Source: a virus
DNA: 22,641 nucleotides
Direction: 5' to 3' (one strand)
Virus record (IMG/VR): IMGVR_UViG_3300010157_002116
Location: 1-22,641 of that record
Part shown: piece by piece, positions 1,152-22,641 of the stretch
Layout: each line of letters opens with the position of its first letter
How positions within the stretch are numbered: position 1 is the stretch's first letter
Position numbers and translations under genes: made by a program
The notes under the pieces: model-generated
Seen by the model: the letters and a program-made list of their open reading frames with translations, nothing else
Told to the model about the DNA's origin: nothing
Databases searched by the model: none

Positions 1152-1601
1152 ATGCCAACATATATTGGATTCAGTACACAAAATGCAAATAAACCTAGGT
1201 CTACTAATTTACCTGCGGCTCCTCAAGGCGGAACGGGCGGAACAATTAACCCAGTAATTACTGGGAATAAATTTGGGTTATATGATACTCCGTTGGTTAT
1301 CCGTGACTTTATTAATGCATTGAATATACAACAGGGACAAAAAGTAGGACAACCCGGATATGGCACTTCTCTTTGGTCATTTGTGTTTGAACCTAACACA
1401 CTTGATACTCAGTTTGAATTAGAGAATGAAATTCGCAGGGTAGCAAATCAAGACCCTAGAATGATAGTCAATTCAGTAAAAGCATATCCTCAGGAAAACG
1501 GTATATTGCTTGAAGTTGAAATGGCTATAAGTCCCTTCAACCAAGCACAATTATTAAGCGTATTCTTTAATAACTCTACAAATACTGCTGTTTTACAATA
1601 A
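1152..1601 (+). CDS. 25: Baseplate wedge subunit, gp25/GPW family
   Basis: This 149-aa protein belongs to the GPW/gp25 family, the small wedge protein that joins the inner baseplate to the sheath end in contractile tails; T4 gp25 is of similar length (132 aa). The N-terminal 40 residues are a Gly/Pro-rich extension. The family core follows: DTPLVIRDFINALNIQQGQ, then GYGTSLWSFVFEPNTLDTQ (residues about 70-90), the helix and conserved turn IRRVANQDPRMIVNSVKAY (the position of the EPR-type motif), and the last strands GILLEVEMAISPFNQAQLL. The ATG at 1152 is chosen because an AGGA lies at 1142-1145 with a 6-nt spacer. The gene is 19 nt after the upstream stop and 52 nt before gp6, as expected for a late structural operon. 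No truncation or frameshift is seen. A phage tail role is firm. Whether the contig is a free phage or a prophage cannot be told here. Confidence 0.92.
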   Translation: MPTYIGFSTQNANKPRSTNLPAAPQGGTGGTINPVITGNKFGLYDTPLVIRDFINALNIQQGQKVGQPGYGTSLWSFVFEPNTLDTQFELENEIRRVANQDPRMIVNSVKAYPQENGILLEVEMAISPFNQAQLLSVFFNNSTNTAVLQ

Positions 1602-5046: not shown

Positions 5047-5074
5047 GTAATATATAGCAACAGAGATTATTAAA

Positions 5075-8000
5075 ATGGCAACAAGAATAAGAACACTAAA
5101 TTTTTTACCAGAGATATTTAAAACAGAAACCAACGCACAGTTTTTAGCTGCAACATTAGATCAACTAGTTGCACAGCCAAATACTAAAAAAGTTGAGGGT
5201 TATATAGGTAGTAAGTTTGGGTATGGTATTAATGCTAAAGATTATTATGTAACTGAACCCACTAAAACTAGGGTTGATTACCAATTAGAGCCTGGTGTTG
5301 TTTTCTTAAAAGAAAATCAAACAACAGCAAAAGATTTCATTAGTTATCCTGGTATAATTGATGCATTAAAACTTGAAGGTGGGGTGACCGCCGACAACAA
5401 TCGTTTATTCAATAGTCAATTCTATTCATGGGATTCGTTTACCAACCTAGACCCTATAATTAATTTCAATCAATATTATTGGTTGCCTGAAGGACCAGAA
5501 CGTGTAATTGTTTCCTCAGATATTGTATATAACAGTTCAAGTTATGTTATACAAGATGAAGCTACGTATTATTTGATTTCATCAGATATTGATTCGATCC
5601 CTGCATCTAATCCATCTCTAACGTTATTGAGAGGCGGTACATATACATTTACTGTAAACCAAGATACTCAATTCTGGATACAAGGCGAGCCGGGTATTAC
5701 TGGGTTAAGCCAAACACAACATAATGTACAAACTCGTGATGTATATGGTGTTACAAATAATGGTGCATCTCAGGGTGTTGTATCATTCACAGTACCGGAA
5801 AAAAATGCATTAGATGGGCAAATATTTCCTGGTAATAACAGAGTTGATGTAGTATCTACTATTCCTTTTAGTCAACTAAACGGAGCTTTTGTAAATGCAA
5901 TTGGTGGCATTGACGGTATAACTTCATTAGATGGTCTAACTGTAATGTTTTACAACACCGGCACATATGATGAAATTGGATACACAAATAAATTTTACGA
6001 CCAAACATTATATGATGAAGAAGGTGGTGTTCCGTATGTAGAAGCAACCGATTACCCTGGCTCATCTATTTTTGATAATAATTATGAAGGTGGATTTTAT
6101 ACTCCGGTCAATGCTAATTTTTATACTATAACTTTATTGGGTGAAATAGATAATCCTATCATCCAATTAACTCCATCCTCTGCTATTCCAATTGAACAAC
6201 AAATAACAGTTGCGTATGGTACTGATTGGGCTAATAGAAATTTTTATCGTAGTGCAATTGGTGAAATAACATTAGAGCCATACAATAGTCCTATTTTAAA
6301 TACCTTATATTATCAAGATGGTTCTTCACCTACTAAAGTAGGTATTATTAATATTATTGATAACAATACTACAAATCAGATTGATGTAATTAATAATATT
6401 TTAGGTAAAAAGAATTATACAGCACCAAATGGTGTTGTGTTTACTAATGGATTGAAAGTATTATTTCAAGGTAATGTTTTCCCTGAAAGTTATAATAATC
6501 AAGAATACTATGTAGAGGGTGTGGGTACTTCAATTGAATTAATACCAGTTACTACATTAGTATCACCGGGTTTATTCTCAGAAGGTGAATATATACCATA
6601 TGACACTTTGTCATATGATATTGGAAATTATGATAGTAGTTTGTATATTCCTATAGAGCCTGACTATATTACTATTGCTAGAAATTCTATTAATAGAAAT
6701 GCATGGTCAAGAAGTAACCGATGGTTTCATATTAATGCTATTAATGCATCCGCAAAATATAACAACAATCCTAGCTTAGTTACACAATATACACAGATTG
6801 ATAACAAAGCAAAACGTCCAATTATTGAATTTTATCCTAATATTCGTTTATTTGATTCAGGTGCTGTGGGCAAAGATCCAATTGATTTTATTGATACCAA
6901 AACAACAGACGCATTTACATATGTAGCAGGTCAAACTAATTATTATCCAGATGTTGCTGGATGGACTACTTATAACGCTACAATTGCGCCTGTTACTAGC
7001 GCAATTACTTCAAAAATAGCAACCGCTACCTATGCATTATTGAATCAAGTTACCTTAAATAATGTAGTTGGTTTACATGTAAATGATACTATAACATTTG
7101 GCGGATCTGTGTTTGGTGGAATTTCTTCCGCTACTACATATTATATCACTGGTATTGTTGATAATAATATTACAATCTCTACCTCAAGACAAGGTACTAA
7201 TTTAGTATTATCAACTGCAAGTGGTACTATGTCTACTTCTATATATTCATATAGCACTACTATTACAATACCTACAATTGATGTATCTGGATTATTTGAA
7301 GTAGGACAATATTTAACTGATTCTACTAATTTATTACCTGAGATTACATTTATTACTGCTGTTACAACAGTAGGGTCAAACACAATAATAACTATTTCCT
7401 GGGATAATTATTCTGTAATTCAAGCTACGTCAGTTGCATCAATCGTAACTGCTGATACCCCGTTGTCAAACTATGCTCTTTTTAACGGATCAAGAATAGT
7501 ATTTGCAACTGATTCTGATGCAGCAGTTAGAAACAAAATATATATTTCACACTTTTCTATAGTAACTCCGGGCACTGCTCCAATCATTACTCTAACAGAA
7601 GCATCTGATGGGCTAGTATTACCAGATGAACAAACTGCGGTATACAGAGGATATAATTATAAGGGCAAAGATTTCTATTTTAATGGTGAAGTGTGGACTG
7701 AAGGCCAACAAAAAATCACAGTTAATCAAGCACCTAAGTTTGATGTGTTTGATAGTAACGGAATAAGTTTTGGTGATACTACCGTTTATGTTGGTACTTC
7801 ATTTACAGGATGTACATTATTTTCATATGGTTTAGGCACTGGTGCTAATGATACAGTATTGGGATTTCCTTTAAGATATAGTTCAGTAGATAACGTTGGT
7901 GATATTAGTTTTGACGTAACATTAAACTCCGCTTCTTTTAATTATGTAGAGGGAACAAAATCAATCAATCAAAAAGTTAATACAGGTTATGTATTTAATT

Positions 8001-11000
8001 ATGTAAATCTTCCAACTGTTGGTATAAAACCGCAAAGAGAAATTGGTTGGCAAACTGCTGTTTCTCTTAGTGCCCAATATCAAATTTTTGAATTTAATTA
8101 TGATCCAATAGCAACAGGTAATATATTTACGTGTGATATTGCACCAATTGTTACTACTCCAACTAAATGGCCCTTAATACAAGTTTATATTAATAATAAT
8201 TATTTACCTACACAATACTGGACAGCAACAACTAATGCTACTAATACGTCAACCGAAATTAGTATACCAAATATTGAAGCTGTGCCAACTATAGTTCAAA
8301 TATTAATATTAAGTGACCAAGTAAGTAATACTGCATATTTTCAAACGCCAGTTAATTTAAATAACAACCCGTTAAACCAAGACCTTACTACTGCTAATAT
8401 TGGTGATATTCGCGGACAATATCAAAGTATTTTCTTTAACAATCCTAACACAACCGGCGAAGTGTTTGGTCCAAACAATTATCACGACTTGGGTAATTTA
8501 GTTCCATGGGGAAATAGAATTATTCAAAACAGCTCCTCATTAGCAGCAGTTGGAACATTTTTGCGTAATCAAACACATGATTTGTTTAATTCTATATTAT
8601 ATAACAGCAGAAGTTATATTACTTTTAAAAATCTATTAGTAGATACAGTTAATAATACTGATTATAGTAGAATGTTAACTCCTTCTCAAATGCTTGATAA
8701 TGCATTGGATCAAATTAATGCATCACATACCAATGACCAATCATTCTTTTGGAGTGATATGTTGCCATCAAAGGCACCGTATATTGTTAATTCATATAGT
8801 TTTGCTAACTCACTTAACATTAGTATCTACCCTCTAAGTCACATTTATAATTTTGCTACAGCAAACTATAATGGTATATTAGTATATTTGATTCGTAATG
8901 GGGTTCAAAGTCAATTAATTAAAGGTGTTGATTATACTGTAAGTACAGACAGTCCTTCATTGACGGTTACGTTAGATTTATTACCTAATGATGAAATTAT
9001 AATTAAAGAATATAATCAAACATACGGTAACTATGTACCTAATACGCCAACCAAACTAGGCTTATATCCTTCTACTATACCAAAAGTATTTTTAGATACT
9101 GCATACAATCCACAAACATATTTCATTGTGGGACATGACGGTTCGTTTAATAAATTATATGGAACATACGATTCAACTAATAATACATTAAGCGATTTTA
9201 GAGATCAGGTATTACTTGAGTATGAAACTCGTGTATATAACAATTTAAAATTAAGTGAGACAGTTCCGGCCGGCACCTACCAAGGTGTTGTAATACCTGG
9301 CTTCTTCAGAACAACTGATTATTCATATGATGAGTTCTTAGAGATATACAGTGAATCTTTCTTAAGTTGGATAGGTCAAAATAGAATCACTTATAAAACA
9401 CAATTTTATAATAAAAATAATCAATTTACCTACAATTATAGAGATAGTGGTAATAAGATAAACAATCAACCAATTGAGCAAGGGTATTTTAGAGGAATGT
9501 ATTTGTATTTCTATGATACAGCTACCCCAAACGAAACGCCATGGGAAATGTTAGGTATAACAGATCAACCAACTTGGTGGACAACTAGATATGGTCCTGC
9601 TCCATATACAAGTGAAAACTTAGTGTTGTGGGAAGATTTAGCCGCCGGACTAGTTTGGAATAATGGAAATTCATATGTAAAGCCTAGCTATATACGTAAT
9701 GGATTATTAAATATAATCCCGGTCAATAGTGCTGGAGATTTAATATCACCATTTAATTCAATTGTAGGAAATTATAATCAAAATATTTTCCAACGTGATT
9801 GGATTGTTGGTGATGTGGGTCCTGCTGAATTCAGCTATCGTAGAAGCAGCACCTGGCCATTTGATTTAATGCGTATATTAGCAGTAACTAAACCTGCTGA
9901 TTTCTTTAATCTTGGCATCGATGTAGACAATTACAAATACAATTTAGAATTCAATCAATATCTAGTAAAAGATAGAAGTCATTTGGTATTATCTGATATA
10001 CCAGTATATGGTAATGGTACACCTGCAACTAGCTATATTAACTGGATTGTAGATTATGAAAAACAAGTTGGGGTGGACTCAACTACTAACATTACCACAC
10101 TATTAAACAACTTAGATGTTCGTTTAATCTATCGCATGGCTGGCTTTGGTGATAAGAATTTATTGCAATTCTATGTAGAAAAGAGTTCAGCCAATAGCAA
10201 TAATAGTTCATTATTAATCCCTGATGAAAGTTATGGTTTATTGTTATATGAAAATCAACCATACGATAGAATCGTATATAGCGGGGTTGTAATACAAGTA
10301 ACTGAACACGGTTATAAAGTATATGGTAATAGCCAAACAAATGCATATTTTAAAGTAGCTGTTCCTAAGTTTGGCGGTACTACAGAAAAAATCACTGTAG
10401 AAAATTTATCAGTATCACTTACACCAACTTTTTATGACATCACTGAAGAAATACCTTACGGCACTGAATTTTATAGTGTTCAACAAGTATCACAATTTTT
10501 AGTTAGTTACGGTGAATATTTAAGATCACAGGGTGTGTTGTTTGATCAAATTGAAAACGGTATACCAATCAATTGGTCACAAATGGTTGCTGAATTTTTA
10601 TATTGGGCACAAACTGGATGGGAAATTGGCAGTATTACTACAATAAACCCGGCTGCAACATTGTTGGCTATTGATAAAGAAAGTCGTATTGTTCAACCGT
10701 TAACAGTAAGACAAACTAACTTTATATTAAATCAAAACTTGTATCCTATACAAAATACTGATTTGTCAATTGTACGTGATGGCACATTATTTACGGCACA
10801 CCCATTAGCTTCGGGTGATAGTATTAGCTATGGTCAATTTAATATAAGCAACATTGAACATGGTATTGTATTTGATAATACGACATTATTCAATGATGTA
10901 ATTTATAATCTAGTTACTGGTTTACGTCAGAACAGAATTTATGTTCGTGGAACAAAAACTGCTGATTGGAATGGTAATATTGATGCATTTGGATTTATAT

Positions 11001-14000
11001 TAAACCAAGACAATATTGCTGAATGGTCAAAAGAAGTAAAATACACAAAAGGTTCTATAGTAAAATATAAAAACAAATATTGGTTTGCAACTAGTATTAT
11101 CCAAGCAAAAGAAGTATTTGATGAACGTGATTGGAAAGAAACTGATTACAACGAAATACAAAAAGGATTGTTACCAAATAGCAGCACCAGATCATATGAA
11201 AGTACATTATACTACAATGTAGATAAAGCTAACTTGGAAAATGATGCAGATTTATTATCTTTCTCATTAATTGGATATCGTCCAAGAGAATATATGTCTG
11301 TAGCAGACCTTACTGATATTACACAAGTTAATGTTTATAAAAATCTAATCAAAGAAAAGGGTACACTAAATGCTGCTAATGCATTTAAGGGTGCTAACTT
11401 GCCACAGGGTGGTATTGATTATGATATCTATGAAAACTGGGCTATTAAATCAGGTGAATTTGGCGGAATATTAAACAATAACTATGTGCAATTTAGATTA
11501 AATCAAACTGAATTGACCGGTAATCCTTCTATAGTTGGTTTAACTACGGGTAACTATCAAACGGGTGTTCAACAAGAAGTATGGTTGTATAATTTATTTA
11601 ATTATGGCACCCCAATCACCTCACCTAATGTATTACCTACATTAGCTACTGCTACTCCATCTACATTATATCCAACAGCTGGATATGTTAATTATGATGA
11701 TGTAAAGATGGCTAGCTATTATTATTCTGGATTGTCTACGGCACAAAACTCAGTAGGAACAACAATTCCAATTAATGAATTTTATGTACGTGATTATGTT
11801 TGGTTAGCTAATTATCTTTCAACTTGGCAAGTATATACCCCTACAAGTTTAGGTTCAGTTATTAATGCAAAAAATAATCTGAATGGTACAGTAACAATAA
11901 CTTTTAGTCAAGCACATAATTTAAAACGTTATCAACCGTTTGCGATTGTTAATTTTAATGCAGCAATTAATAATTATTACATTGTAGCAGCAGTAGTGGA
12001 TCCATTCAATGTTATAATTAATTTGTCATTGAATCCTCAATTAACTAACCTTACTGGGCAAGGAATTGGATTCAAATTACAAAGTCAACGTGTAGCCACT
12101 GCGCCTGAAATAATTAATTTACCGTTGTTAGATAATGAATTTAATAAATTAAAAGTTTGGGTTGACACAAACAATGACGGTAGTTGGGCTGTATATCGCA
12201 AGAGTTTAAACTATCAATATAGTAAAGAAATTGTAAAAACAAACAGTACAACTTTTGGTAGTGCAGTTGCATATTCTACATTGTTGGGTTATATGGTAAG
12301 TAATGCCGGCGCTGGCATTGTCTATAGATATGCATATGATAATTCAACCTCTAGTTACATTGAAAAACAAACTATTACACACAGTACATCATTTGGTTCA
12401 AACATAACATATATTGATGATTTGTTTGTAATATCTCAACCAACGAGTTCACCAACTGTTTATGTTTATAAATTAATAACTACCACATTGGTTAATGAAT
12501 TGCAATTATATCAAACTATAACTGCACCAGGGGGTGTAACAACCTGGGGTACTTCAACAGCATTGTCAGGGGATCAAAATTGGTTGTACATATCTGATAT
12601 AGATAATAACAATGTTTATGTATATCGCAAGTCCGCTATTACTAGTTTATATGAACAAGTAGCAATACTAACTGTTGCAGGATTATCTGCTGGTGATGAG
12701 TTTGGGCATTCAATCGCCACTGATTATTACGGAGATACAGTAGTAATAGGGACACCGTATAAAGATTATGATGTCAATACTCAAAATTACGGATACACAT
12801 ATGTATTCTCACGCACAATAGAAAATTTTGAAGCACAATCTACTAGCCAAGCATATATACCGTTAACCTTTGCGTTAGCATGGACTCCGGTAACATTGTC
12901 AACTACGGCAAGAAGTATATTAAGTAACGCAATTACACTTGATAGTGTTTCTGATTTAAAAGCAGGTGCTGAGGGTACCCCAATTGTCTTTACTGGTATA
13001 GCATTTGGCGGCATTGCAACAAATACAGTTTATTATGTAAAAACTATTGATCAATTGGGTTCTACTATTACAGTATCTTTAACCAGAAATGGTACTACTT
13101 TGTCTCTTACTAATACTGTTTCAGGTACTATGACTGCAACTGGACAAACAAATCCTTTATATGTAGCAGTTAATGGTAGTGAGTTGGCAGACAATAAGTA
13201 TGCGGTTATCGACTCTACATTCTATGTATATAGTAATGCAACACCCACATTAAATGCAGGTGATATAATTAATGTAAGTAGTACAAATTTCGTATTAACT
13301 CAAACACTAACCAATGAGCAAACTCCTAGAGTTGGTGTAGAATTTGGTACTAGTGTAGATACAAATACATTTGCAAATGAAATTTTAATTGGTGCTCCTT
13401 TTGAATTGTCTTATCAAAACTACGAAGGTGCTGTTCATAGATACACAAATGGTGGTGAAAGATACGGAATTATTATTGGAACTGCTGATTGTAATATAAC
13501 TGCTGCTAGAACTATTTTGTTAAATGGATTTAAAGTTGTATTACCAATTGGTAATGCAGCCGCAGCAGCCAATGCAATCAATGCAGCAAGAATTACAAAT
13601 GTCTATGCATCTACCGCAGATGGTAAATTGGTTATATCCTTGATAAATGTAAATTTAGGTATTGCAGGTAATAAATTATCATTATCTGTGTTAAGTGCTA
13701 TTACATTGAATGAGATGGGTATAACTTTATACAAACAAACTCAAACAATAAATTGTCCACACCTAACGGGCAGAACACAATTTGGTACAACAGTTAAGTT
13801 TGACAGTTCTAACTCTGGATCATTTATAGCAAGCGCACCAGTTGGTGCAAGATATTCAGCTACTACATTTGACTTTGTTGACGATGAATTAGACAATGAT
13901 ACAGTATTTGACAATAATGCAACGCAATGGGTTGACACATTCCGTAATGCAGGCGCAGTATATATGTTTGACTATTTGGCTAACTATGATGAAAACATTA

Positions 14001-17000
14001 ACGCCCCTGGTAAATTTGTATATGCACAAAGCACAAATGCACAAGATTTAGATTATGGCGCACAACCATACTATGGCACTGCATTAGATTTCAATAATAA
14101 CACAGTTACTATTGGTACACCAAACTTTAAACCAACTAGCAACCCAACTAATCTAGCTGGTCAAGTGGTTACTTATGTAAGCAATAGCAGCACCCCTGAT
14201 TGGACTGTATATAGAAGCTCCTCTGAGGTAGTAGATATAAATGGTGTATTTAATATCCAATTGTTCAGTGCAAATACTAATGAAACATTAATAAACTTAG
14301 ATTATATAGATCCGTTGCAAGGTAAATTATTAGGAGCAGTTGCTGAAAATATTGATATCGTTTCTAATATAGACCCAGCATCATATAATTCAATTAATAA
14401 TCAGTCAGGATTAGTTTGGGGCGCAGATAAGATAGGTACATTGTGGTTTGATACTAGCAATACTCGTTTTATGAATTATCATCAAAATGATATAGCTTAT
14501 AATAGTCAGTATTGGGGTAGAGTATTTCCTGGTAGTGATGTTTCAGTATATTCATGGGTTGCAAGCAATGTAATACCTGCACAATATACAGGTCCCGGAA
14601 CCCCATACAATACTGATACTTACACTATCCGTGGCACTGTTAATGCTGAAGGGTTAATCAGTCCTATCTATTATTTCTGGGCTAGAAACACTAATATTGT
14701 ATTTGATAAGTTAGGAAAAACTTTAGCTGATTCTACATTGCAGTTATACATAGCGAACCCACAAAACACCGGTATTAGTTATTTTACACCATTGTTATCT
14801 AACGTATTTGGATTATACAATTGCATTCCTTTTATAAATGCTACTGACACTGTGTTGCAGCTTGGGTATGCAATTAGTAACAATGATGATGTTGCTCATA
14901 CACAGTATAGTTTAATCCGAGCAAATTATGCTGATGATTTCTTACCGGGAATCCCTGGCTCGGGCGCAGCATATCAAAATCATGCATCAGTTGGAATAAC
15001 TGAACCAATTGGTTTATATAACAGGATGATAGACAGTATGTGCGGTGTGGATAATGCAGGTGGTGTTGTGCCCGACCCATTATTACCAAAAGCAGTACAA
15101 ACAGGTGTATTAGCTAGACCAAGACAAGGTTTCTTCTATAATAGATTTGGTGCATTGAAGAATTATTTACAGTATGCCAATGTTATATTAGCGCAATTTC
15201 CTATAACAGAAACAAGAAATATACAATTATTAAATAGCGAAAATCCTGAAATACTTGATGAAAATGGTAATGTAATATTTGCAGCTGGGCAGCGTTATGA
15301 TACTAAAAAATACTGGAATACTATTAATTGGTGGGCACCTGGTTATAATGATAACACTAAGTCATCATTACAAGTACCTGTATATTCAGATTTATCTACA
15401 CTAAGTGTACCCGTAGGTACAATCGTTACAGTTGCAATGAATGGTAACGGTAATAGTGAAACATATATATACGCTGCTGATGGCACTTGGATACGCATAG
15501 GACTAACCAACGGAACAATTGAATTTGATTCTGTACTTTGGGATTACACAAGTGCTAGATTAGGGTTTGGTGATAATTTCTTTGATACAACACCGTTTGA
15601 TGAATACCCTTCAACTGAAACACGTTATATTGTTCGTTCATTGAATGAAGAAATTTATACAAATGAATTATTAATTTTTAGAAATAAGAGTTTGATTTTA
15701 CTATTTGATTATATCCAAAGTGAAACTATTGAAAGTCAAAATTATTTAAATTGGTTAAACAAAACTTCATTTGTTGATGTTGCTCATACTATACGTGAAT
15801 TGGTACCATTGGAAGTATTTCGTTCTGATAATCAAACATTCTTAGAAGGTTATTTGAATGAAGTTAAACCTTACCATGTTGTAATTAAAGAATTTATATT
15901 TAAATATACTAAAACTGATATATTTGAGGGTGACATTACTGACTTTGATTTGCCAGCACAATTTGACCCAACGATTGACCAGTTCCTTACACCTGAATTA
16001 GTATATGCTAATCCTAGTGGTAATTATCAATTCTTATCAACTGATCCAATATGGAACAATCCACTATACACTCAATGGTATAATAATTATGGATTAAGTA
16101 TTGTTGGTCAAACTGACTATCAAATAGCAAGATTAGATTCATATATGGCATTAAATACCACTTCATGCTATGTTGATAACATTAATGGATTCCCAGTTAC
16201 CGGTACTATCATGATAGGTACTGAGCAAATTGCATATATTAATAGAAATTTACAAACCGGAGAACTTACTGGTTTGTCAAGGGGAGTAAACGGTACTACA
16301 ATTACTATTCATTTACCTGGCGAAAATATTTATATAGATTTATCTCCTATCGTTATATTGAATGAAGGAAGAGGTTACTCTAACCCACCAAGAATAATAG
16401 CTTATATAGATACTACGATCTACCCTCCACCAAGAACTCCTGCGCAATTCAAACCTATAATGAGTTTGGGTTCGGTCATTGGGGTAACTGTTATTAATCC
16501 AGGTGAAGGCTATGCTGCATTGCCTTCGATTATTATTGATCCGGCTTATGTTATTAGCATTACAGAGGCTCAAATAAATGTAGTAGATAATACAATAGAA
16601 TTGTATAACCCTTTACTACAAACAGGTGATTTGATAACCTATACTATAGCGGCCGGCTCAACTGCTATAGAAGGATTAACAATTGGACAACGATATTATG
16701 TAGGTTTATTGGAAACGACCCCGGTACCTATATTTGCTCTTTATTCTAGTTATTTGGATGCTATAAACGACCATGATCGTATTCCATTATATACAACAGG
16801 ATCCGGAACTCAGTATTTTGATCAGGGTGCAATTGCAAGTTGTGTAACCAGTGCGATGCCAATAAGAGAAAATAGTATATCATTAAAATATGATAGAACT
16901 TCATATACTTCTCAAGTTATACCTTGGGTTGGCGGTAATTTTTATGGCTCATTCTATGCAGGAACATTGTCTAATAGTAACAAGATAGCATCTTCATCTA

Positions 17001-20000
17001 TATTGCTATATAGCGAGCAACCTCCAATTGAATCAATATTAGCCAGTGCTCAGGGTGAGACCTTTGAGATTTTAAATGTTGAGAATCAACAAAATATAAC
17101 TTGGTCATCACGCACTAGAGATACTATACAAACGTATGGTTCTACTTATCCAACACTGTCATATCAAAACGCAATACGAATTAACCCAACAGTTGGTGGA
17201 GCACCAGTTGCCGGTAATATAGGTTCTACTATTGGTTTCTATGTTGGTATGCCTGTTAAATTTGTAGGATCTACTACTGGAACTAGATTAACAAGTAGTA
17301 GCCCAACAAGTACTACAACATATTATGTAAAATCTTTAGTTCAATTGCCTAGTGCAGATTATACTTTAACTACTGATTTGATAGTTGGTCAGCAATATGT
17401 AATCGCGGGATTGGGATCAACAAACTGGAATACTGTTGCAGGGACTATAGGAGTCACCTATTCAGTTGGAGATAACGTAATTGTTAAATCAACCGCATCT
17501 GGTTCAGGCTCAGCATTTTTATTAGAAGATACTGGCTTTACTATTTCTGATTCTGTAGATATTAACGGTAACCCGCAAAGCGTTTACTCACCTAACTTAG
17601 GTTCAAGTTATGTTAATATATCTGTTGCTGGATTGACATTATATGTAGGTGAATTGACAAATCTTGCTGTAATGACAATCAATTATAGCGGCATACGAAC
17701 CGCAACAGCTACTACTTCTACAGTTAATGCAATATCTGTATTATTAACTCCAACTGGACAAAATGGTACAACTAATTTTTACACAGGACTACCAATCTTC
17801 TTCACTGGACATGTGTTTGGTGGAATAGAAGAAAATCAAACATACTATATAACTACAGTAATTGATAATCAATCATTCACGATGTCAGCATCAGATACTG
17901 CGCCTACATCATCTACTGTTACTGCAACTGCTTCTAGCAATGATTCAGTAACATGTGATACTGCACTTGGGTTGGTAATCAATGATCCTATTATATTTAC
18001 AGGTGACACCTTTGGTGGCATAGTTGCGGGTACTACTTATTATGTAAGAGAAATATTCTCAGGAAATATACAATTTTCTATTGCAGCAGTAGTCAATGGA
18101 CCGGCTGTAACATTAACAGATGACTCTGGGTCTTGCACATTTACTAGCCAACGTAATATCGTTAAATTAACTAATGGCACTGGTTTAATGACATTAAACG
18201 TGGGATTACCAGTAAGTCCTGGTCAAATCAATGGCCAACAGTTTACGTTATATGAAACTTCTACACAGTACACCGGTGTTTTTGGCACAGTTTCTAATTT
18301 ATTAACAAGAAATATTTCAGCTACATTAGGAACTCTAAAGAGAATTTGTATCCCTTCAACAACTTTGGGATTAACCAATGTATATCAAAATATGCAATTT
18401 ATTTTTGATAAAAGCATTGGTGGGTTAGTTGCTGCTACTCCATATACAATCACTAGTACAGGAACAACATCAATAACAGTAAATAGTACTACTAGTACAA
18501 ATAATTGGTTGATATTAGATGTTGCATCAAACCCAGATTTAACAAATGTATTGTACGTGGGTATGCCATTATACTTCTCGGGCACATCATTGGGCGGAGT
18601 ATCATTGGGTGAAGTGTATTATGTATATGAAATAGATAGTTCACCTCCAACAGGTCAAGGCAGATTTAAATTATCAGAAAATATTAATCTTACTAGTGTA
18701 TATACATTGTTCAACAGCAATGGTGAAATGACAGGCACCGGTGAATCTTATGTAACTATATCAAACACAGTATTAAATTCAAGTCAGACAGCATCTAGTA
18801 TTACTGTAGCTGATCCGACTGTAATTACAGTTTCAAATGGTTCTGCATTCCCCAATGGTACTGCAATAAGATTAACTACGACAGGAACATTACCAACTCC
18901 ACTGACTACTGAATTAACATACTATGTTAGAAATAGAAGCGGTAATACATTTAATATATCATATACACCAACTAGTAGCTTAATTAAAACTACTGTATCG
19001 GGAACAGGTAAATTTAATGTAAATGCAATTGAAGTGTTGTTAACTCAGTACATAAACCCAATAAATCACGCAGTATTTGACGTAAGTTATATCTTGGGCG
19101 GGTATAGTTCAGCAATTACCACTAGTGGTAGTGGATATACTATTGACAACGTTATTACCATAGATGGATCATCAATTGGTGGTGTAAGCGGAGTAAATGA
19201 TTTGTCTATTACTATTAATATGATTGACGGTAACATTCCAGTTGGGCAAGTTAGTCCACCTGTTTCAAATGGATCACTAGTTTCAGCGATATCTGCCGGT
19301 ACACCTGCAGGTATTGTAGATAGTTATTATGTTAAAGTACTTTCAGAAAATCAAGTAGGTATATACAGTAATCCAACTCTTACTGTACCCGTAACAGGTC
19401 AAAATTTTAATTATACTGGTATAACTTCTACTTCAGTAACCTCAGTAACTGCATCAACTAATATATTAACTGTACTTGATTCTAGTAAGTTTAATGTTAA
19501 TGATCCGGTAGTGTTTACTAATGTTGTTCCTGCTACATCAATAAGAGCAGGACAAACATATCAAGTTCTTACATTAGGAGATACCAATTTTGCTTTAATA
19601 GGTGCATTAACTAATACAGTAGGGCAAGTATTTGTTGCTACTACATCTGGTGCTGGTACTGGAACTGCTATTGCTAGCGTATACGGTGGCATCACCGCAG
19701 GTGAAACATATTATATTAAGAGCAAGCCATCACCAACTGGTGTAACAATAGCTACTACGATTGGTGTGTCTACCTTTGATATAACTACTGATGTTATAGG
19801 ATCAATGACAATGGCTAAATTTGGTGACTATGCATTGTTACCAGAACCATTCTTCTTTAATCCAAGTGTTGTAAAATATAACAATAGATTGTATCAATGT
19901 GTAGTTAGTAACAATGATCCTGACTTTATATTTGGTAAATGGGAATTATTAAATTCAAATAGCAGACAAATAAATGCATTAGATAGAATTGTTGGTTACT

Positions 20001-22641
20001 ATCAACCTACTGTAAACATGCCAGGTAATGACATGACACAGTTGGTAACAGGAATCACCTATCCAAATAGCACATATTTAGCCAATGCATTTGCGCCCGC
20101 AGATGAATATCCGTTAGATACATTGTTGCAAGATCAACCGTTCTATGCAACTGGATTAAATCTTAAGGGTATAGTATGGAATGGTTTACATTACCTTGCA
20201 GTGTCCGATGCTGCTACTTATTCAGCATTCAACGTAAGCGCAGACGGAGTTAGTTGGACAATTAATAACTTAGCAAATCAATCACTTGGTATTACTGATT
20301 TGATATATGCCGGTGGTAGCTATGTTATTACTACAACTAATAGCGCAACTCCAATGCTAATAAGTGATAACGGATACAACTGGATTACAAATGGTACATT
20401 TACCCCATATGATAGTATCCCATATGATACTGGAAACTTTGACGTATCATTATTAAATGTATCATCATTATCATTAAATGGTGTTGCATATAACAATGGT
20501 TTATATGTTGCTGTTGGACAGGATATCATAACCTCTACTGACTTATATACATGGACTGAGCGTTATGCATTTTCAAATGGTTTAGTAAATTCATTTAATG
20601 GAATAACATATGTTAACACTAGTGGATTTACTGGATTTGTTGCTATAGGATTAGGTCAACGGCTAGTTAATGGCATTGCTACAAACGTAGCAATAATATA
20701 TACTAGTACAACCGGACTTGTTTGGCGCCAAGTACCGTTCACTAGTAGTGAATATGGATTTAATGCTATTGCAGCAAACAATCAGACAATAGTTGCTGTT
20801 GGAGACAATGGTATTATATATACCAGCTTCAATACAATTGATTGGTTCCCTCAAACATCAGGTGTATCATATAATTTGAATAATGTTTATTGGGATAGTT
20901 ATAGTAACATCTTTATAATAGTTGGTGATCACGGAACAATATTAACATCTGACATCAGTGGCATAACATGGGCAGATCAGTCAAGTTCCTCAGTAACTAC
21001 TAATAATTTAACTGGGGTAACACATAACACAATTGACGGGCAGTATATTATTGTTGGTTTAGATAATACAATTTTATCTAGCACAGATACTATCACTTGG
21101 ACATCAATAGGAACATTCAAAACTTTAGAATCAATTTATTCTATTCAAGGAGATAGTTTTGAGTATGGGTATGGACCAGAAGAATTGGTACCTGGCGTAG
21201 TATCTGATACATTGACTATGGTCGTAGCAACTCGTCCTGGTACGAACTGGGATGAAACAGTATACCAACATGTTGGCTATAATGTAGTTTCTACAGAAAT
21301 AGCACCTACATCAAGTACGCAAACTGAGTATAGTTTTGCTAACTTAGTAACTACACCTGCGCAATTGAGTGTATTTGTAATTCATTATTCAACTGGCTTA
21401 AGCACCACACTATATGAAGGAACAGATTACACAATAAATTGGGTTAACAGTATTGTTACATTAAACACCAGTTTAAATTACAATCCTACTACTGATAAAT
21501 TACGCATTGATGTATATGAAGTTGGTAACGGTGATCAATTAGTAAAGGCAAGTACCAAAACAGATCCTATTAGGATAAATTCTACTACAGGATTCCAAGA
21601 AATATATCTAAATGCAAATTATAGTGCAGGTATATTTCAAGGCTCAGGTATAATGAGACCTCAAACTTCTCCAATATATGTCAATGCAATACAAACTGAT
21701 GGATTAACTAATACAATTACTTGTACTAGTGTTAATCACTTTATATTAAATAGTGCAATAACTTTCTCTGGTGCAATATTTGGTGGTATAGTTGAAGATC
21801 AAGTATATTATGTAAAATCTATTGGCGGTGTTTCTAATAGAATTACTATATCTGCGACATATAACGCAAGTACCGGAACAGCAGGTGAAACAGTAACATT
21901 AACATCAGCGACTGGCATTATGGAAGTTGTTATAAAAGTTGGTACAGGATCAGTATGGACACCACCTGCGGTGTATCATAACGGTACTCAACTCGTATTA
22001 GGAACAACTGCACCGATAACTAGAACAAAATCAATCACCAATACGATAACAACAATTTCAACTGGTGGATTAATACCCAATACGTCCATCACGTTTAGTG
22101 ATACGATATTTGGTGGAGTATTGCAACCTGACACCGTGTATTATGTAAAAACTATATATGATAATAATGAATTCTCTGTGTCATTAACATCAGGTGGTGC
22201 TATATTAGAATTAACTGATGCAACTGGTGGAGCAACATTTGTAACAAATGATTTTGCTATTGGATTGACAAGTAACGGAATCGATGCTGCAATTATATTA
22301 GCGGTTGACTACGATGCTACAGTAGATTATATCTCTTATACATTAATGGGAGAAACATTACCAATACAGTATGGTTATACGATACCACAGATTCAAAAAT
22401 TTACTGGCAATGGAACGACGGCTTCATTTGCATTAACCAATTATATTGGTGCAGATAATGCAACTAATGCTATCGTTGAGATTAATGGATTGCGTCAAAC
22501 TAACTCTGCTTATGCCATCAATGCTGATAATAATACTATATTGTTCACCCCACCTCCACCAAACGGCTCTGTTGTTGCAATAACGTCATATAACTTAACC
22601 GAGAGACAATATTTAAATACTCAATATAACATAACTGGAAG
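5075..22641 (+). CDS. Giant modular virion structural protein (baseplate/tail), 3'-truncated by window edge
   Basis: One frame runs from ATG 5075 past the right edge: at least 5855 codons with no stop. The start is chosen from its position 28 nt after gp6, an AGAG ribosome site at 5062-5065, and an N-terminus (MATRIRTLNFLPEIFKTETN, then QLEPGVV) that resembles large structural proteins of cyanophage-type myoviruses. No signal peptide or membrane span was noticed. Approximate order by residue: N-terminal block with a cupredoxin-like segment (182-246); conserved PWEMLGITDQPTWW block (1489-1620); chitin-binding-like module (1983-2023); FG-GAP-type propeller with inserts (2350-3050); conserved FDTTPFDEYP block (3489-3631); E-I-Y...GL(S/T)RG motif (3712-3752); array of FGG(I/V)/YYVK repeats (about 3846-4914); second chitin-binding-like module (4928-4958); seven-bladed BNR-like propeller (5030-5346); two more FGG repeats; and a vNGv-type phage module at the edge. 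It occupies the T4 gp7 position, but I see no gp7 or gp8 signature. A peripheral baseplate or adhesive fibre role is inferred. Confidence 0.88.
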   Translation, partial: MATRIRTLNFLPEIFKTETNAQFLAATLDQLVAQPNTKKVEGYIGSKFGYGINAKDYYVTEPTKTRVDYQLEPGVVFLKENQTTAKDFISYPGIIDALKLEGGVTADNNRLFNSQFYSWDSFTNLDPIINFNQYYWLPEGPERVIVSSDIVYNSSSYVIQDEATYYLISSDIDSIPASNPSLTLLRGGTYTFTVNQDTQFWIQGEPGITGLSQTQHNVQTRDVYGVTNNGASQGVVSFTVPEKNALDGQIFPGNNRVDVVSTIPFSQLNGAFVNAIGGIDGITSLDGLTVMFYNTGTYDEIGYTNKFYDQTLYDEEGGVPYVEATDYPGSSIFDNNYEGGFYTPVNANFYTITLLGEIDNPIIQLTPSSAIPIEQQITVAYGTDWANRNFYRSAIGEITLEPYNSPILNTLYYQDGSSPTKVGIINIIDNNTTNQIDVINNILGKKNYTAPNGVVFTNGLKVLFQGNVFPESYNNQEYYVEGVGTSIELIPVTTLVSPGLFSEGEYIPYDTLSYDIGNYDSSLYIPIEPDYITIARNSINRNAWSRSNRWFHINAINASAKYNNNPSLVTQYTQIDNKAKRPIIEFYPNIRLFDSGAVGKDPIDFIDTKTTDAFTYVAGQTNYYPDVAGWTTYNATIAPVTSAITSKIATATYALLNQVTLNNVVGLHVNDTITFGGSVFGGISSATTYYITGIVDNNITISTSRQGTNLVLSTASGTMSTSIYSYSTTITIPTIDVSGLFEVGQYLTDSTNLLPEITFITAVTTVGSNTIITISWDNYSVIQATSVASIVTADTPLSNYALFNGSRIVFATDSDAAVRNKIYISHFSIVTPGTAPIITLTEASDGLVLPDEQTAVYRGYNYKGKDFYFNGEVWTEGQQKITVNQAPKFDVFDSNGISFGDTTVYVGTSFTGCTLFSYGLGTGANDTVLGFPLRYSSVDNVGDISFDVTLNSASFNYVEGTKSINQKVNTGYVFNYVNLPTVGIKPQREIGWQTAVSLSAQYQIFEFNYDPIATGNIFTCDIAPIVTTPTKWPLIQVYINNNYLPTQYWTATTNATNTSTEISIPNIEAVPTIVQILILSDQVSNTAYFQTPVNLNNNPLNQDLTTANIGDIRGQYQSIFFNNPNTTGEVFGPNNYHDLGNLVPWGNRIIQNSSSLAAVGTFLRNQTHDLFNSILYNSRSYITFKNLLVDTVNNTDYSRMLTPSQMLDNALDQINASHTNDQSFFWSDMLPSKAPYIVNSYSFANSLNISIYPLSHIYNFATANYNGILVYLIRNGVQSQLIKGVDYTVSTDSPSLTVTLDLLPNDEIIIKEYNQTYGNYVPNTPTKLGLYPSTIPKVFLDTAYNPQTYFIVGHDGSFNKLYGTYDSTNNTLSDFRDQVLLEYETRVYNNLKLSETVPAGTYQGVVIPGFFRTTDYSYDEFLEIYSESFLSWIGQNRITYKTQFYNKNNQFTYNYRDSGNKINNQPIEQGYFRGMYLYFYDTATPNETPWEMLGITDQPTWWTTRYGPAPYTSENLVLWEDLAAGLVWNNGNSYVKPSYIRNGLLNIIPVNSAGDLISPFNSIVGNYNQNIFQRDWIVGDVGPAEFSYRRSSTWPFDLMRILAVTKPADFFNLGIDVDNYKYNLEFNQYLVKDRSHLVLSDIPVYGNGTPATSYINWIVDYEKQVGVDSTTNITTLLNNLDVRLIYRMAGFGDKNLLQFYVEKSSANSNNSSLLIPDESYGLLLYENQPYDRIVYSGVVIQVTEHGYKVYGNSQTNAYFKVAVPKFGGTTEKITVENLSVSLTPTFYDITEEIPYGTEFYSVQQVSQFLVSYGEYLRSQGVLFDQIENGIPINWSQMVAEFLYWAQTGWEIGSITTINPAATLLAIDKESRIVQPLTVRQTNFILNQNLYPIQNTDLSIVRDGTLFTAHPLASGDSISYGQFNISNIEHGIVFDNTTLFNDVIYNLVTGLRQNRIYVRGTKTADWNGNIDAFGFILNQDNIAEWSKEVKYTKGSIVKYKNKYWFATSIIQAKEVFDERDWKETDYNEIQKGLLPNSSTRSYESTLYYNVDKANLENDADLLSFSLIGYRPREYMSVADLTDITQVNVYKNLIKEKGTLNAANAFKGANLPQGGIDYDIYENWAIKSGEFGGILNNNYVQFRLNQTELTGNPSIVGLTTGNYQTGVQQEVWLYNLFNYGTPITSPNVLPTLATATPSTLYPTAGYVNYDDVKMASYYYSGLSTAQNSVGTTIPINEFYVRDYVWLANYLSTWQVYTPTSLGSVINAKNNLNGTVTITFSQAHNLKRYQPFAIVNFNAAINNYYIVAAVVDPFNVIINLSLNPQLTNLTGQGIGFKLQSQRVATAPEIINLPLLDNEFNKLKVWVDTNNDGSWAVYRKSLNYQYSKEIVKTNSTTFGSAVAYSTLLGYMVSNAGAGIVYRYAYDNSTSSYIEKQTITHSTSFGSNITYIDDLFVISQPTSSPTVYVYKLITTTLVNELQLYQTITAPGGVTTWGTSTALSGDQNWLYISDIDNNNVYVYRKSAITSLYEQVAILTVAGLSAGDEFGHSIATDYYGDTVVIGTPYKDYDVNTQNYGYTYVFSRTIENFEAQSTSQAYIPLTFALAWTPVTLSTTARSILSNAITLDSVSDLKAGAEGTPIVFTGIAFGGIATNTVYYVKTIDQLGSTITVSLTRNGTTLSLTNTVSGTMTATGQTNPLYVAVNGSELADNKYAVIDSTFYVYSNATPTLNAGDIINVSSTNFVLTQTLTNEQTPRVGVEFGTSVDTNTFANEILIGAPFELSYQNYEGAVHRYTNGGERYGIIIGTADCNITAARTILLNGFKVVLPIGNAAAAANAINAARITNVYASTADGKLVISLINVNLGIAGNKLSLSVLSAITLNEMGITLYKQTQTINCPHLTGRTQFGTTVKFDSSNSGSFIASAPVGARYSATTFDFVDDELDNDTVFDNNATQWVDTFRNAGAVYMFDYLANYDENINAPGKFVYAQSTNAQDLDYGAQPYYGTALDFNNNTVTIGTPNFKPTSNPTNLAGQVVTYVSNSSTPDWTVYRSSSEVVDINGVFNIQLFSANTNETLINLDYIDPLQGKLLGAVAENIDIVSNIDPASYNSINNQSGLVWGADKIGTLWFDTSNTRFMNYHQNDIAYNSQYWGRVFPGSDVSVYSWVASNVIPAQYTGPGTPYNTDTYTIRGTVNAEGLISPIYYFWARNTNIVFDKLGKTLADSTLQLYIANPQNTGISYFTPLLSNVFGLYNCIPFINATDTVLQLGYAISNNDDVAHTQYSLIRANYADDFLPGIPGSGAAYQNHASVGITEPIGLYNRMIDSMCGVDNAGGVVPDPLLPKAVQTGVLARPRQGFFYNRFGALKNYLQYANVILAQFPITETRNIQLLNSENPEILDENGNVIFAAGQRYDTKKYWNTINWWAPGYNDNTKSSLQVPVYSDLSTLSVPVGTIVTVAMNGNGNSETYIYAADGTWIRIGLTNGTIEFDSVLWDYTSARLGFGDNFFDTTPFDEYPSTETRYIVRSLNEEIYTNELLIFRNKSLILLFDYIQSETIESQNYLNWLNKTSFVDVAHTIRELVPLEVFRSDNQTFLEGYLNEVKPYHVVIKEFIFKYTKTDIFEGDITDFDLPAQFDPTIDQFLTPELVYANPSGNYQFLSTDPIWNNPLYTQWYNNYGLSIVGQTDYQIARLDSYMALNTTSCYVDNINGFPVTGTIMIGTEQIAYINRNLQTGELTGLSRGVNGTTITIHLPGENIYIDLSPIVILNEGRGYSNPPRIIAYIDTTIYPPPRTPAQFKPIMSLGSVIGVTVINPGEGYAALPSIIIDPAYVISITEAQINVVDNTIELYNPLLQTGDLITYTIAAGSTAIEGLTIGQRYYVGLLETTPVPIFALYSSYLDAINDHDRIPLYTTGSGTQYFDQGAIASCVTSAMPIRENSISLKYDRTSYTSQVIPWVGGNFYGSFYAGTLSNSNKIASSSILLYSEQPPIESILASAQGETFEILNVENQQNITWSSRTRDTIQTYGSTYPTLSYQNAIRINPTVGGAPVAGNIGSTIGFYVGMPVKFVGSTTGTRLTSSSPTSTTTYYVKSLVQLPSADYTLTTDLIVGQQYVIAGLGSTNWNTVAGTIGVTYSVGDNVIVKSTASGSGSAFLLEDTGFTISDSVDINGNPQSVYSPNLGSSYVNISVAGLTLYVGELTNLAVMTINYSGIRTATATTSTVNAISVLLTPTGQNGTTNFYTGLPIFFTGHVFGGIEENQTYYITTVIDNQSFTMSASDTAPTSSTVTATASSNDSVTCDTALGLVINDPIIFTGDTFGGIVAGTTYYVREIFSGNIQFSIAAVVNGPAVTLTDDSGSCTFTSQRNIVKLTNGTGLMTLNVGLPVSPGQINGQQFTLYETSTQYTGVFGTVSNLLTRNISATLGTLKRICIPSTTLGLTNVYQNMQFIFDKSIGGLVAATPYTITSTGTTSITVNSTTSTNNWLILDVASNPDLTNVLYVGMPLYFSGTSLGGVSLGEVYYVYEIDSSPPTGQGRFKLSENINLTSVYTLFNSNGEMTGTGESYVTISNTVLNSSQTASSITVADPTVITVSNGSAFPNGTAIRLTTTGTLPTPLTTELTYYVRNRSGNTFNISYTPTSSLIKTTVSGTGKFNVNAIEVLLTQYINPINHAVFDVSYILGGYSSAITTSGSGYTIDNVITIDGSSIGGVSGVNDLSITINMIDGNIPVGQVSPPVSNGSLVSAISAGTPAGIVDSYYVKVLSENQVGIYSNPTLTVPVTGQNFNYTGITSTSVTSVTASTNILTVLDSSKFNVNDPVVFTNVVPATSIRAGQTYQVLTLGDTNFALIGALTNTVGQVFVATTSGAGTGTAIASVYGGITAGETYYIKSKPSPTGVTIATTIGVSTFDITTDVIGSMTMAKFGDYALLPEPFFFNPSVVKYNNRLYQCVVSNNDPDFIFGKWELLNSNSRQINALDRIVGYYQPTVNMPGNDMTQLVTGITYPNSTYLANAFAPADEYPLDTLLQDQPFYATGLNLKGIVWNGLHYLAVSDAATYSAFNVSADGVSWTINNLANQSLGITDLIYAGGSYVITTTNSATPMLISDNGYNWITNGTFTPYDSIPYDTGNFDVSLLNVSSLSLNGVAYNNGLYVAVGQDIITSTDLYTWTERYAFSNGLVNSFNGITYVNTSGFTGFVAIGLGQRLVNGIATNVAIIYTSTTGLVWRQVPFTSSEYGFNAIAANNQTIVAVGDNGIIYTSFNTIDWFPQTSGVSYNLNNVYWDSYSNIFIIVGDHGTILTSDISGITWADQSSSSVTTNNLTGVTHNTIDGQYIIVGLDNTILSSTDTITWTSIGTFKTLESIYSIQGDSFEYGYGPEELVPGVVSDTLTMVVATRPGTNWDETVYQHVGYNVVSTEIAPTSSTQTEYSFANLVTTPAQLSVFVIHYSTGLSTTLYEGTDYTINWVNSIVTLNTSLNYNPTTDKLRIDVYEVGNGDQLVKASTKTDPIRINSTTGFQEIYLNANYSAGIFQGSGIMRPQTSPIYVNAIQTDGLTNTITCTSVNHFILNSAITFSGAIFGGIVEDQVYYVKSIGGVSNRITISATYNASTGTAGETVTLTSATGIMEVVIKVGTGSVWTPPAVYHNGTQLVLGTTAPITRTKSITNTITTISTGGLIPNTSITFSDTIFGGVLQPDTVYYVKTIYDNNEFSVSLTSGGAILELTDATGGATFVTNDFAIGLTSNGIDAAIILAVDYDATVDYISYTLMGETLPIQYGYTIPQIQKFTGNGTTASFALTNYIGADNATNAIVEINGLRQTNSAYAINADNNTILFTPPPPNGSVVAITSYNLTERQYLNTQYNITG
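5618..5810 (+). other. Cupredoxin-like segment of the giant protein (residues ~182-246)
   Basis: The segment reads LLRGGTYTFTV, then FWIQGEP, RDVYGVTNNGASQG and VVSFTVP. This order of an RGGTYTF strand, an FWI strand and a final V.F.VP strand is like cupredoxin-type domains found in large phage structural proteins. The usual copper-binding His/Cys/Met set is not evident, so a structural rather than metal role is likely. The fold is inferred from motif order only. Confidence 0.5.
7064..7234 (+). repeat. FGGI/YYVK-type repeat, copy 1 (residues ~664-720)
   Basis: The copy reads VGLHVNDTITFGGSVFGGIS, then TTYYITGIVDNNITIST and a final GTMS. It is the first member of a protein-level repeat family with the scheme 'G..V.f.g..FGGi..gt.YYVk.i....f.iS...... 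G.m'. It is isolated, about 5.7 kb before the next copy at 12947. Confidence 0.7.
9539..9925 (+). other. Conserved structural block of the giant protein (residues ~1489-1617)
   Basis: This Trp-rich stretch contains PWEMLGITDQPTWWTTRYG, then LVLWEDLAAGLVW, FQRDWIVGDVGPAEFSYRRS and STWPFDLMRILAVTKPADFF. It reads as a compact conserved region rather than a low-complexity linker, and similar blocks occur, to my recollection, in cyanophage-type giant structural proteins. It probably belongs to the ancestral core that the beta modules were added to (inference). No enzymatic motif is seen. Confidence 0.55.
11021..11143 (+). other. Chitin-binding-like (CBM5/12-type) module of the giant protein (residues ~1983-2023)
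   Basis: The segment EWSKEVKYTKGSIVKYKNKY is followed by WFATSIIQAKEV and DERDWKE. The pattern W..... Y.kG..V.Y.nkyW.a...q ... W matches the small aromatic carbohydrate-binding fold of chitinase C-termini and phage fibres. It suggests binding to a surface glycan. It is a pattern match only. Confidence 0.45.
12947..13141 (+). repeat. FGGI/YYVK-type repeat, copy 2, inserted between FG-GAP blades
   Basis: The copy contains GTPIVFTGIAFGGIATNTVY, YVKTIDQLGSTITVSLTRNG and a final SGTMTATG. It is full length for the family (about 65 residues) and lies within the FG-GAP propeller region, between the blades that begin at 12701 and 13343. Confidence 0.7.
13466..13770 (+). other. Inserted phage-type domain within an FG-GAP blade
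   Basis: The segment runs GIIIGTADCNITAARTILLN, GFKVVLPIG, AAAAANAINAARITNVYAST, GKLVISLINV, GNKLSLSVLSA, MGITLYKQTQTI. The order 'I.lNG..v.l... A..INaa.i..v.A......L.I.......gnkLs...l......lGi....y.qTq' is, to my recollection, a small domain repeated in phage structural proteins. It splits the blade that begins at 13343 from the next FG turn at 13781. Confidence 0.5.
15539..15965 (+). other. Second conserved structural block of the giant protein (residues ~3489-3631)
   Basis: The block reads WDYTSARLGFGDNFFDTTPF, DEYPSTETRYIVRSLNEEIY, a helical stretch, NWLNKTSFVDVAHTIREL, and NEVKPYHVVIKEFIFKYTKT ending at DFDLP. It resembles a conserved region I recall from cyanophage large structural proteins, and it separates the FG-GAP propeller from the repeat array. 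Its charged helical character contrasts with the surrounding beta-rich modules. The role is unknown. Confidence 0.55.
16208..16545 (+). other. E-I-Y / GLSRG motif and G-GY-P repeats in the giant protein (residues ~3712-3824)
   Basis: IMIGTEQIAYINRN is followed by LTGLSRGVNGTTITIHLPGE, matching a common phage structural motif (E.I.Y......LtgltRG..gT....H..G). After it come two GxGY...P strands, GRGYSNPPRIIAYI and GVTVINPGEGYAALPSIII, which look like a small duplicated beta unit. A third, weaker relative (TSGSGYTIDNVITI) lies near 19120. Confidence 0.55.
17381..17527 (+). repeat. 'VG..Y.I..LG.TN' module, copy 1, inside the FGG repeat array
   Basis: IVGQQYVIAGLGSTNWNTVA is followed by SVGDNVIVKSTASGSGSAFL. 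The scheme 'G..Y.I...G.T.w..vG.......G..F.at..g.GsG.a' matches a short module widespread in phage structural proteins. It follows directly after the YYVKSL strand of a degenerate FGG-type repeat. Confidence 0.6.
19547..19672 (+). repeat. 'VG..Y.I..LG.TN' module, copy 2, nested within an FGG repeat
   Basis: AGQTYQVLTLGDTNFALIGA and then VGQVFVATTSGAGTGTA form a full copy of the same module as at 17381. It sits between the first strand (NDPVVFTNVVP, from 19499) and the GG turn with YYIKS (from 19682) of one FGG-type repeat, so it splits that repeat. Confidence 0.65.
19856..19949 (+). other. Second chitin-binding-like module of the giant protein (residues ~4928-4958)
   Basis: NPSVVKYNNRLYQCVVSNND followed by FIFGKWEL shows the pattern V.Y.n.lY.c......p....W of the small CBM5/12-type aromatic fold, like the module at 11021. 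It lies between the FGG repeat array and the seven-bladed propeller, a typical place for a glycan-binding insert. Confidence 0.45.
20162..21110 (+). other. Seven-bladed BNR/Ycf48-like beta-propeller (residues ~5030-5346)
   Basis: Seven successive blades each combine a 'v.yng..y.avG' strand pair with an 'i.tS.dg..W' turn: GIVWNGLHYLAVSD/SADGVSWT; DLIYAGGSYVITTT/ISDNGYNWI; GVAYNNGLYVAVGQ/TSTDLYTWT; GITYVNTSGFTGFVAIG/TSTTGLVWR; AIAANNQTIVAVGDNGIIYTS with IDWF; NVYWDSYSNIFIIVGDHGTI/GITWA; GVTHNTIDGQYIIVG/SSTDTITWT. Blades are 40-60 residues, and seven is the usual closed number. Asp-box-like S.D/T...W turns recall sialidase/BNR and Ycf48 propellers. No sialidase arginine triad is apparent, so a binding rather than catalytic role is likely. 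Confidence 0.75.
21731..22249 (+). repeat. Two further FGG(I/V)/YYVK repeats (residues ~5553-5725)
   Basis: Copy at 21731-21919: NSAITFSGAIFGGIVEDQVY, YVKSIGG, ITIS and a closing SATGIMEV. Copy at 22058-22249: TSITFSDTIFGGVLQPDTVY, YVKTIYDNNEFSVSL, then ELTDATGGATFV. These two are the clearest examples of the family and lie after the seven-bladed propeller, so the repeat type brackets it on both sides. Confidence 0.72.
22397..22641 (+). other. vNGv-type phage module at the right edge, truncated by the window
   Basis: KFTGNGTTASFALTNYIG, IVEINGLRQTNSAYAIN, NTILFTPPPPNGSVVAIT. The scheme 'f.gdG.t..F.l......... v.inG..q....Y.i...ti.F...pp.gs.v.i' is a common phage tail-fibre module. Looser relatives occur in the same protein near 8158-8310, 8880-9020 and 21356-21530. 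The frame is still open at the last base. Confidence 0.6.

Follow-up and report, generated by a model that had tools for sequence, protein, structure and literature searches.

Gene content of the locus

The window, by which we mean the whole analysed stretch of 22,641 nucleotides (positions 1 to 22,641 of IMG/VR virus record IMGVR_UViG_3300010157_002116), carries two baseplate genes followed by a giant open reading frame whose 3' end lies beyond the window:

1152..1601, plus strand: gp25-type baseplate wedge / sheath initiator protein, 149 aa (Pfam PF04965, GPW_gp25, 28.6 bits, above cut-off; phrog_261, phrog_43)
1654..5046, plus strand: gp6-type baseplate wedge protein, 1,130 aa (phrog_10646, E 1.5e-255; phrog_219, E 5.8e-22)
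5075..22641 (last codon ends at 22639), plus strand: giant ORF, ATG start, 5,855 codons

A first-pass annotation had placed the giant frame in the gp7 position of a T4-like baseplate cluster, which is borne out by gp25 (Pfam) and gp6 (PHROG) directly upstream. The gp6-type protein is 31-42% identical to its counterparts in RaK2-like jumbo phages (tblastn), and in a gp6 tree the freshwater sequences group together, separate from the isolates, with long branches that leave the deeper branching order uncertain. The order gp25, gp6, giant gene and a gene for a 206-aa protein was found in all ten complete freshwater relatives, and gp25-gp6-giant also in RaK2, PA5oct, Phosso, Atu_ph07, CBB, XacN1 and Vibrio phage 2.275.O. 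Salicola phage SCTP-2 is the exception, with its giant gene about 92 kb away from gp25-gp6, indicating that the linkage between the giant and gp6 is not obligatory. The SCTP-2 giant gene comes after another very large gene (gene 141, 3,096 aa; L111, L115).

Just 5' of gp25, window positions 2-1132 encode an Ala/Gly-rich protein with near-perfect 54-bp and 33-bp tandem repeats (GALGNLTGAAGA), located at positions 62-214 and 483-616. A similar, variable protein is found upstream of gp25 in relatives, and one relative (G005; L094/L095) has an extra 229-aa ORF between gp25 and gp6.

The giant reading frame is a single gene

The first-pass annotation had described a stop-free frame of at least 5855 codons from the ATG at 5075, and the ORF scan agreed, with 0 in-frame stops up to the last base of the window and coding character over the full length. 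At the base composition of the ORF, such a run would arise by chance with a probability of about 10^-200, and the same span holds 472 and 744 stops in the two other plus-strand frames and 310-550 in the three minus-strand frames. Codon positions 1/2/3 have GC contents of about 0.40/0.42/0.19 over the full length, with ranges of 0.17 to 0.21 at third positions and 0.36 to 0.48 at positions 1 and 2. Comparison with two relatives gave dN of 0.14-0.32 and dS of 1.1-2.0 in every 650-codon block, dS being close to saturation and the dN/dS ratio thus approximate only. With dN well below dS and codon-position GC maintained along the ORF, the entire frame is coding and under purifying selection.

The complete giant gene is present as one ORF with a stop in ten other contigs, encoding proteins of 5,996, 6,219, 6,242, 6,404, 6,408, 6,516, 6,548, 6,597, 6,617 and 6,886 aa with predicted masses of 656-747 kDa. 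These are 61-78% identical to the window protein over the first 600 residues, and the alignment suggests that the window protein is short of them by 516-1,002 C-terminal residues, giving roughly 6,400-6,900 aa for the full-length protein of this virus. IMG/VR contains 346 stretches in all that encode a protein related to the first 600 residues.

The first-pass annotation had also raised the concern that misassembly or a frameshift might have fused two or more genes, and the window is indeed an IMG/VR fragment that breaks off within the giant gene. Such an artefact is exceedingly improbable, given the ten complete single ORFs in other contigs and the gene's presence in several isolate genomes, the continuous alignment to relatives and the purifying selection over the whole ORF. 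A second contig of the same virus, G001 (29,811 bases), ends in the modular C-terminal part at the very base (22641) at which the window ends, and contig G002 likewise stops within the giant gene; the module array may be the cause of these assembly breaks.

A known family of jumbo-phage virion proteins

Sequence comparison placed the window protein in an established family annotated as 'virion structural protein' (PHROG 10938), which it matched in two segments with E 6.5e-128 and 1.6e-107; freshwater contigs G008, G013 and G016 match the same family in 4-6 blocks. The evidence from tblastn, PHROGs and gene order jointly links it to RaK2-like jumbo phages, as the counterpart of their giant virion structural protein. 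Members from isolates are RaK2 ORF070 (3,326 aa), CBB gp236 (3,340 aa) and PA5oct gp355 (3,857 aa), to which Atu_ph07 gp180, XacN1 ORF325 (HMM E 1.3e-85) and the proteins of Phosso, SCTP-2 and Vibrio phage 2.275.O can be added. Contigs of freshwater relatives reach 263,709 and 348,701 bases, so these too are jumbo phages.

That the giant is a virion protein, as the first-pass annotation had supposed, holds by orthology: the PA5oct gp355 record carries an ESI-MS/MS note, meaning detection in the virion by mass spectrometry, and CBB gp236 was found in virions with 21 peptides and 7.7% coverage (PMC5259590). Mass spectrometry of these orthologues speaks to presence in the virion, not to location.

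Isolate and freshwater proteins have in common the place after gp25-gp6, the conserved blocks and a KGT motif, and, with the exception of XacN1, a KPY motif. They differ in size, 3,313-4,555 aa in isolates versus 5,996-6,886 aa in the freshwater clade. The freshwater proteins are set apart by so-called FGGI modules and an FG-GAP region, and their C-terminal part exceeds that of the isolates in length by a factor of about 2-5. What is new here is therefore the approximately doubled size and the string of extra domains, smaller versions of the protein being known in related jumbo phages. A search of the open-access literature (subscription papers lay outside it) found no paper describing the freshwater expansion. 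Relatives of the giant have already been deposited, as a model of aa 3018-3700 matched two UniProt entries from uncultured Caudovirales phages, A0A6J5L0K2 and A0A6J5T0D1 (Foldseek E values of 8e-42 and 1.2e-38), with 24% identity in this part. Both are named 'YHYH domain-containing protein' after a short domain only and, judging from the entry suffix, were deposited as pieces of longer proteins. Moraphages (PMC12619734) were considered as the home lineage and dropped, as that paper deals mainly with Bacteroidota phages and leaves RaK2 unmentioned.

Conserved scaffold and lineage-specific modules

In the family alignment, aa 1-145, 480-600, 800-2110 and 3040-3680 are conserved throughout, and the following features were delineated within these parts:

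5075..5509, plus strand: N-terminal conserved block, aa 1-145, in all family members (alignment, invariant columns)
6512..6874, plus strand: conserved block, aa 480-600 (alignment, invariant columns)
8942..11404, plus strand: most conserved core, aa 1290-2110 (PHROG 10938, E 6.5e-128)
11252..11389, plus strand: KGT segment, aa ~2060-2105 (KGT/KGS in all aligned members)
14192..16114, plus strand: second conserved core, aa 3040-3680, with a helical part and a KPY[HRT]xxI[KR] motif at aa 3598

The core at aa 1290-2110 is 25-34% identical to RaK2, PA5oct, Atu_ph07, Phosso, SCTP-2 and the Vibrio phage. The scaffold blocks evolve slowly, with dN mostly 0.14-0.2, versus 0.28-0.32 in the faster, modular C-terminal part. 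AF2 models of aa 1-1180 and aa 3018-3700 reached mean pLDDT values of 53 and 59 from thin input alignments (42 and 36 sequences); both are confident in beta domains only and poor in the scaffold blocks, which counts against a place in the wedge. The low confidence could fit segments that fold on their partners or, equally, could stem from the thin alignments. Sequence and profile searches returned no solved structure related to the giant, Foldseek of the two models against the PDB gave no match at E <= 0.001, and for the aa 3018-3700 model the best VIA-align score was an uninformative Z 5.2 over 48 residues.

Between and behind the conserved parts lie the modules:

5525..6373, plus strand: beta-sandwich of cupredoxin-like fold, aa 151-433, lineage-specific (AF2 model)
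7007..7270, plus strand: copy of the ~85-aa FGGI beta module, aa 645-732 (self-similarity and iterated HMM; pLDDT mostly 83-92)
12242..14179, plus strand: FG-GAP repeat region, aa ~2390-3035 (Pfam FG-GAP_2 26.3 bits, above cut-off; seven FG-GAP-like motifs)
16172..16369, plus strand: short 'GTEQI...GLSRGVNGT' module, aa ~3700-3765, common to cyanophage giants (hhalign probability 90.8)
17132..19843, plus strand: FGGI module array, aa ~4020-4923, lineage-specific (iterated HMM)
20222..21094, plus strand: Asp-box / YCF48-like repeats, aa ~5050-5340 (Pfam PSII_BNR E 0.0038, below cut-off; three Asp-box motifs)
21674..22273, plus strand: two more FGGI modules, aa 5534-5733 (self-similarity and iterated HMM)

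The beta-sandwich resembles rusticyanin (VIA-align Z 9.7, rmsd 2.7, 96 residues aligned), a likeness of fold that carries no claim of metal binding. The FG-GAP region is a probable seven-bladed propeller with an inserted FGGI module, and the Asp-box / YCF48-like repeats may, as a weaker prediction, form a second beta-propeller. The FGGI repeats, found by tile-wise self-comparison followed by an iterated HMM, number 13 in the window protein and from 9 to 18 in its complete relatives, with 0 in isolates. One FGGI module resembled E1_FCCH (E 2.7e-5, below the Pfam cut-off), with Uba6 among the weak Foldseek rows; the likeness was not reproduced with the whole module set and serves as no more than a lead.

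Past the KPY motif, complete freshwater proteins continue for 2,450-3,198 residues and isolate proteins for 564-1,331, and a profile of the freshwater C-terminal part found little in isolates beyond the edge of the conserved core, apart from a few short stretches. The module distribution and this profile result point to modular expansion as the source of the extra size. At the level of sequence, lineage-specific beta modules, a long array of C-terminal modules and the FG-GAP region nearly double the size of the family in the freshwater clade, whose range of 5,996-6,886 aa shows what length such a protein can attain with its conserved scaffold retained.

Relation to T4 gp7, P2 gpI and cyanophage giants

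T4 gp7 has 1,032 residues and its gene follows gp6, as the first-pass annotation had stated. It has the same position and the same expected role as the giant, and differs in length (about 6,000 aa or more for the giant) and in the lack of detected sequence homology. The reported absence of a gp7 signature also stood: segments of the window gave no match to the gp7 profiles phrog_964 and Pfam Gp7_helical, Gp7_5th and Gp7_6th, which T4 gp7 itself matches. Comparisons of the giant with T4 gp7 by blastp, hhalign and HMM found no homology, and blastp against T4 gp7, gp8, gp9 and gp10 gave nothing convincing. Between CBB residues 787-852 and T4 gp7, blastp gave a similarity at E 0.003 that profile comparison failed to reproduce, and it was rejected. 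Since phrog_964 had no recognisable match in RaK2, CBB, PA5oct, Atu_ph07, Phosso or three long freshwater contigs, no other candidate for gp7 is seen in these eight. In a whole-genome Pfam search of ten records with Tail_P2_I (PF09684), only P2 itself matched.

Two of these comparisons discriminate poorly. P2 gpI and T4 gp7 are regarded as counterparts in the literature (PMC6300606), and the hhalign test misses this pair as well, so its failure between the giant and T4 gp7 says little. T4 gp7 was not among the VIA or Foldseek matches listed, which excludes nothing because the AF2 models are poor in the scaffold blocks.

Cyanophages likewise have a giant between gp6 and gp8, and gp7 has been reported absent and replaced there (PMC7029224). 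These cyanophage and pelagiphage proteins (phrog_4406, phrog_2885, phrog_701; ACG-2014e gp083, 3,495 aa) are of a similar size class. They share with the window giant a short module ('GTE...RGxxGT') and perhaps also the KGT core. The family HMM found no significant domain in ACG-2014e gp083, with only short modules in common. Giants in the gp7 slot thus recur in jumbo phages and cyanophages, and the first-pass annotation's remark on the rarity of phage proteins of this size has to be qualified, as the structural profiles phrog_2885 and phrog_701 in PHROGs have 4,179 and 6,136 positions. T4 gp7 aa 646-758 (L112) shares a KG(I/T) core with the cyanophage giant wedge proteins (L113), although the literature has gp7 replaced in these phages.

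The KGT segment is a candidate gp6-binding core of the gp7/gpI type, the likeness being suggestive only; in the gp7 family, the gp6 dimer is bound by a core-bundle helix-turn-helix together with a trifurcation domain. In comparisons with the cyanophage wedge core, four of five tilings (about 110-150 tiles each) had the KGT tile in first place, and in RaK2 it came second, with the alignment in motif register. The hhalign p value was 0.011, and 2 of 200 column shuffles scored as well. The cyanophage core in turn matches T4 gp7 (84% probability, E 7e-6), which also matches giant wedge PHROGs. However, a p value near 0.01 is weak for a motif chosen by eye before testing, the tilings were built on one alignment and their rankings are not independent, the segment aligns to T4 itself out of register, and the Pfam Gp7 and Tail_P2_I families gave no match. 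As the motif had been noticed beforehand and one common alignment was used, we treat the likeness as a lead rather than a result. True homology to T4 gp7 and P2 gpI, in which a diverged protein with its gp6-binding core at aa ~2060-2105 would have been enlarged by domain insertion, is a conceivable but doubtful reading and a sharper form of the explanation that places the giant in the wedge at the gp7 position.

Proposed role in the baseplate wedge

We consider it fairly probable, with some reservation, that the giant is a tail-baseplate virion protein in the gp7 position, most likely doing the job of gp7. T4 wedges have the composition (gp6)2-gp7, gp7 being a monomer with six copies in all (PMC3004832, PMC10457771). 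By analogy, one copy of the giant per wedge would bind the gp6 dimer and gp25, hold the wedge together and connect it to peripheral parts. The four conserved stretches would form the scaffold that binds gp6 and gp25, interrupted and extended by the lineage-specific beta modules, the FG-GAP region and the C-terminal part, which may project outward as spacers or as surface- or glycan-binding, host-surface parts.

The alternative is a peripheral appendage or adhesion protein, such as a whisker, fibre or decoration, that merely adjoins gp6 and lies outside the wedge scaffold. Much of the protein is made up of beta modules and of FG-GAP and Asp-box repeats, elements characteristic of adhesion or binding, the PHROG category of the family is 'head and packaging' rather than tail, which also counts against the baseplate reading, and SCTP-2 lacks the linkage to gp6. 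Yet the most conserved parts are the long scaffold blocks and not the modules. The first-pass annotation had suggested that so large a protein could account for a major visible appendage, for which we found no support. The orthologues of RaK2, for which whiskers are not reported, and of whiskered CBB are equal in size (3,326 and 3,340 aa), the tail whiskers of CBB not having been described in other published RaK2-like phages (CBB paper). RaK2's long tail fibres have been assigned to other proteins, gp526-534 (PMC10253068). We regard a purely peripheral protein as unlikely.

Within the preferred wedge role, a more far-reaching arrangement can be imagined, in which a gp6-binding core of the gp7/gpI type sits mid-chain and the peripheral parts that are separate in T4, serving adhesion and fibre anchoring, are fused around it in a single chain of up to about 750 kDa; this we put forward as speculation. 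Should the scaffold be the equivalent of gp7, it would help to reconstruct how large single-chain baseplates arose from simple (gp6)2-gp7 wedges, and would hint at the possible site of host-binding parts in lake jumbo phages.

Genes downstream of the giant gene

Downstream of the giant in nine loci (L087, L089, L091, L093, L097, L099, L101, L103 and L105), runs of adjacent genes encode C-x-x-PW ... CC motifs and resemble radical-SAM/SPASM-type proteins, with glycosyltransferase-like genes alongside; Atu_ph07 and Phosso each have one annotated radical SAM gene downstream of the giant. A downstream protein of about 415 aa (L087:4912-6159) matches Peptidase_G2 (IMC autoproteolytic cleavage) above cut-off and is probably a self-cleaving fibre or spike. 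The gene behind it, encoding about 318 aa, is present as a tandem duplicate in two relatives (G004 and G010).
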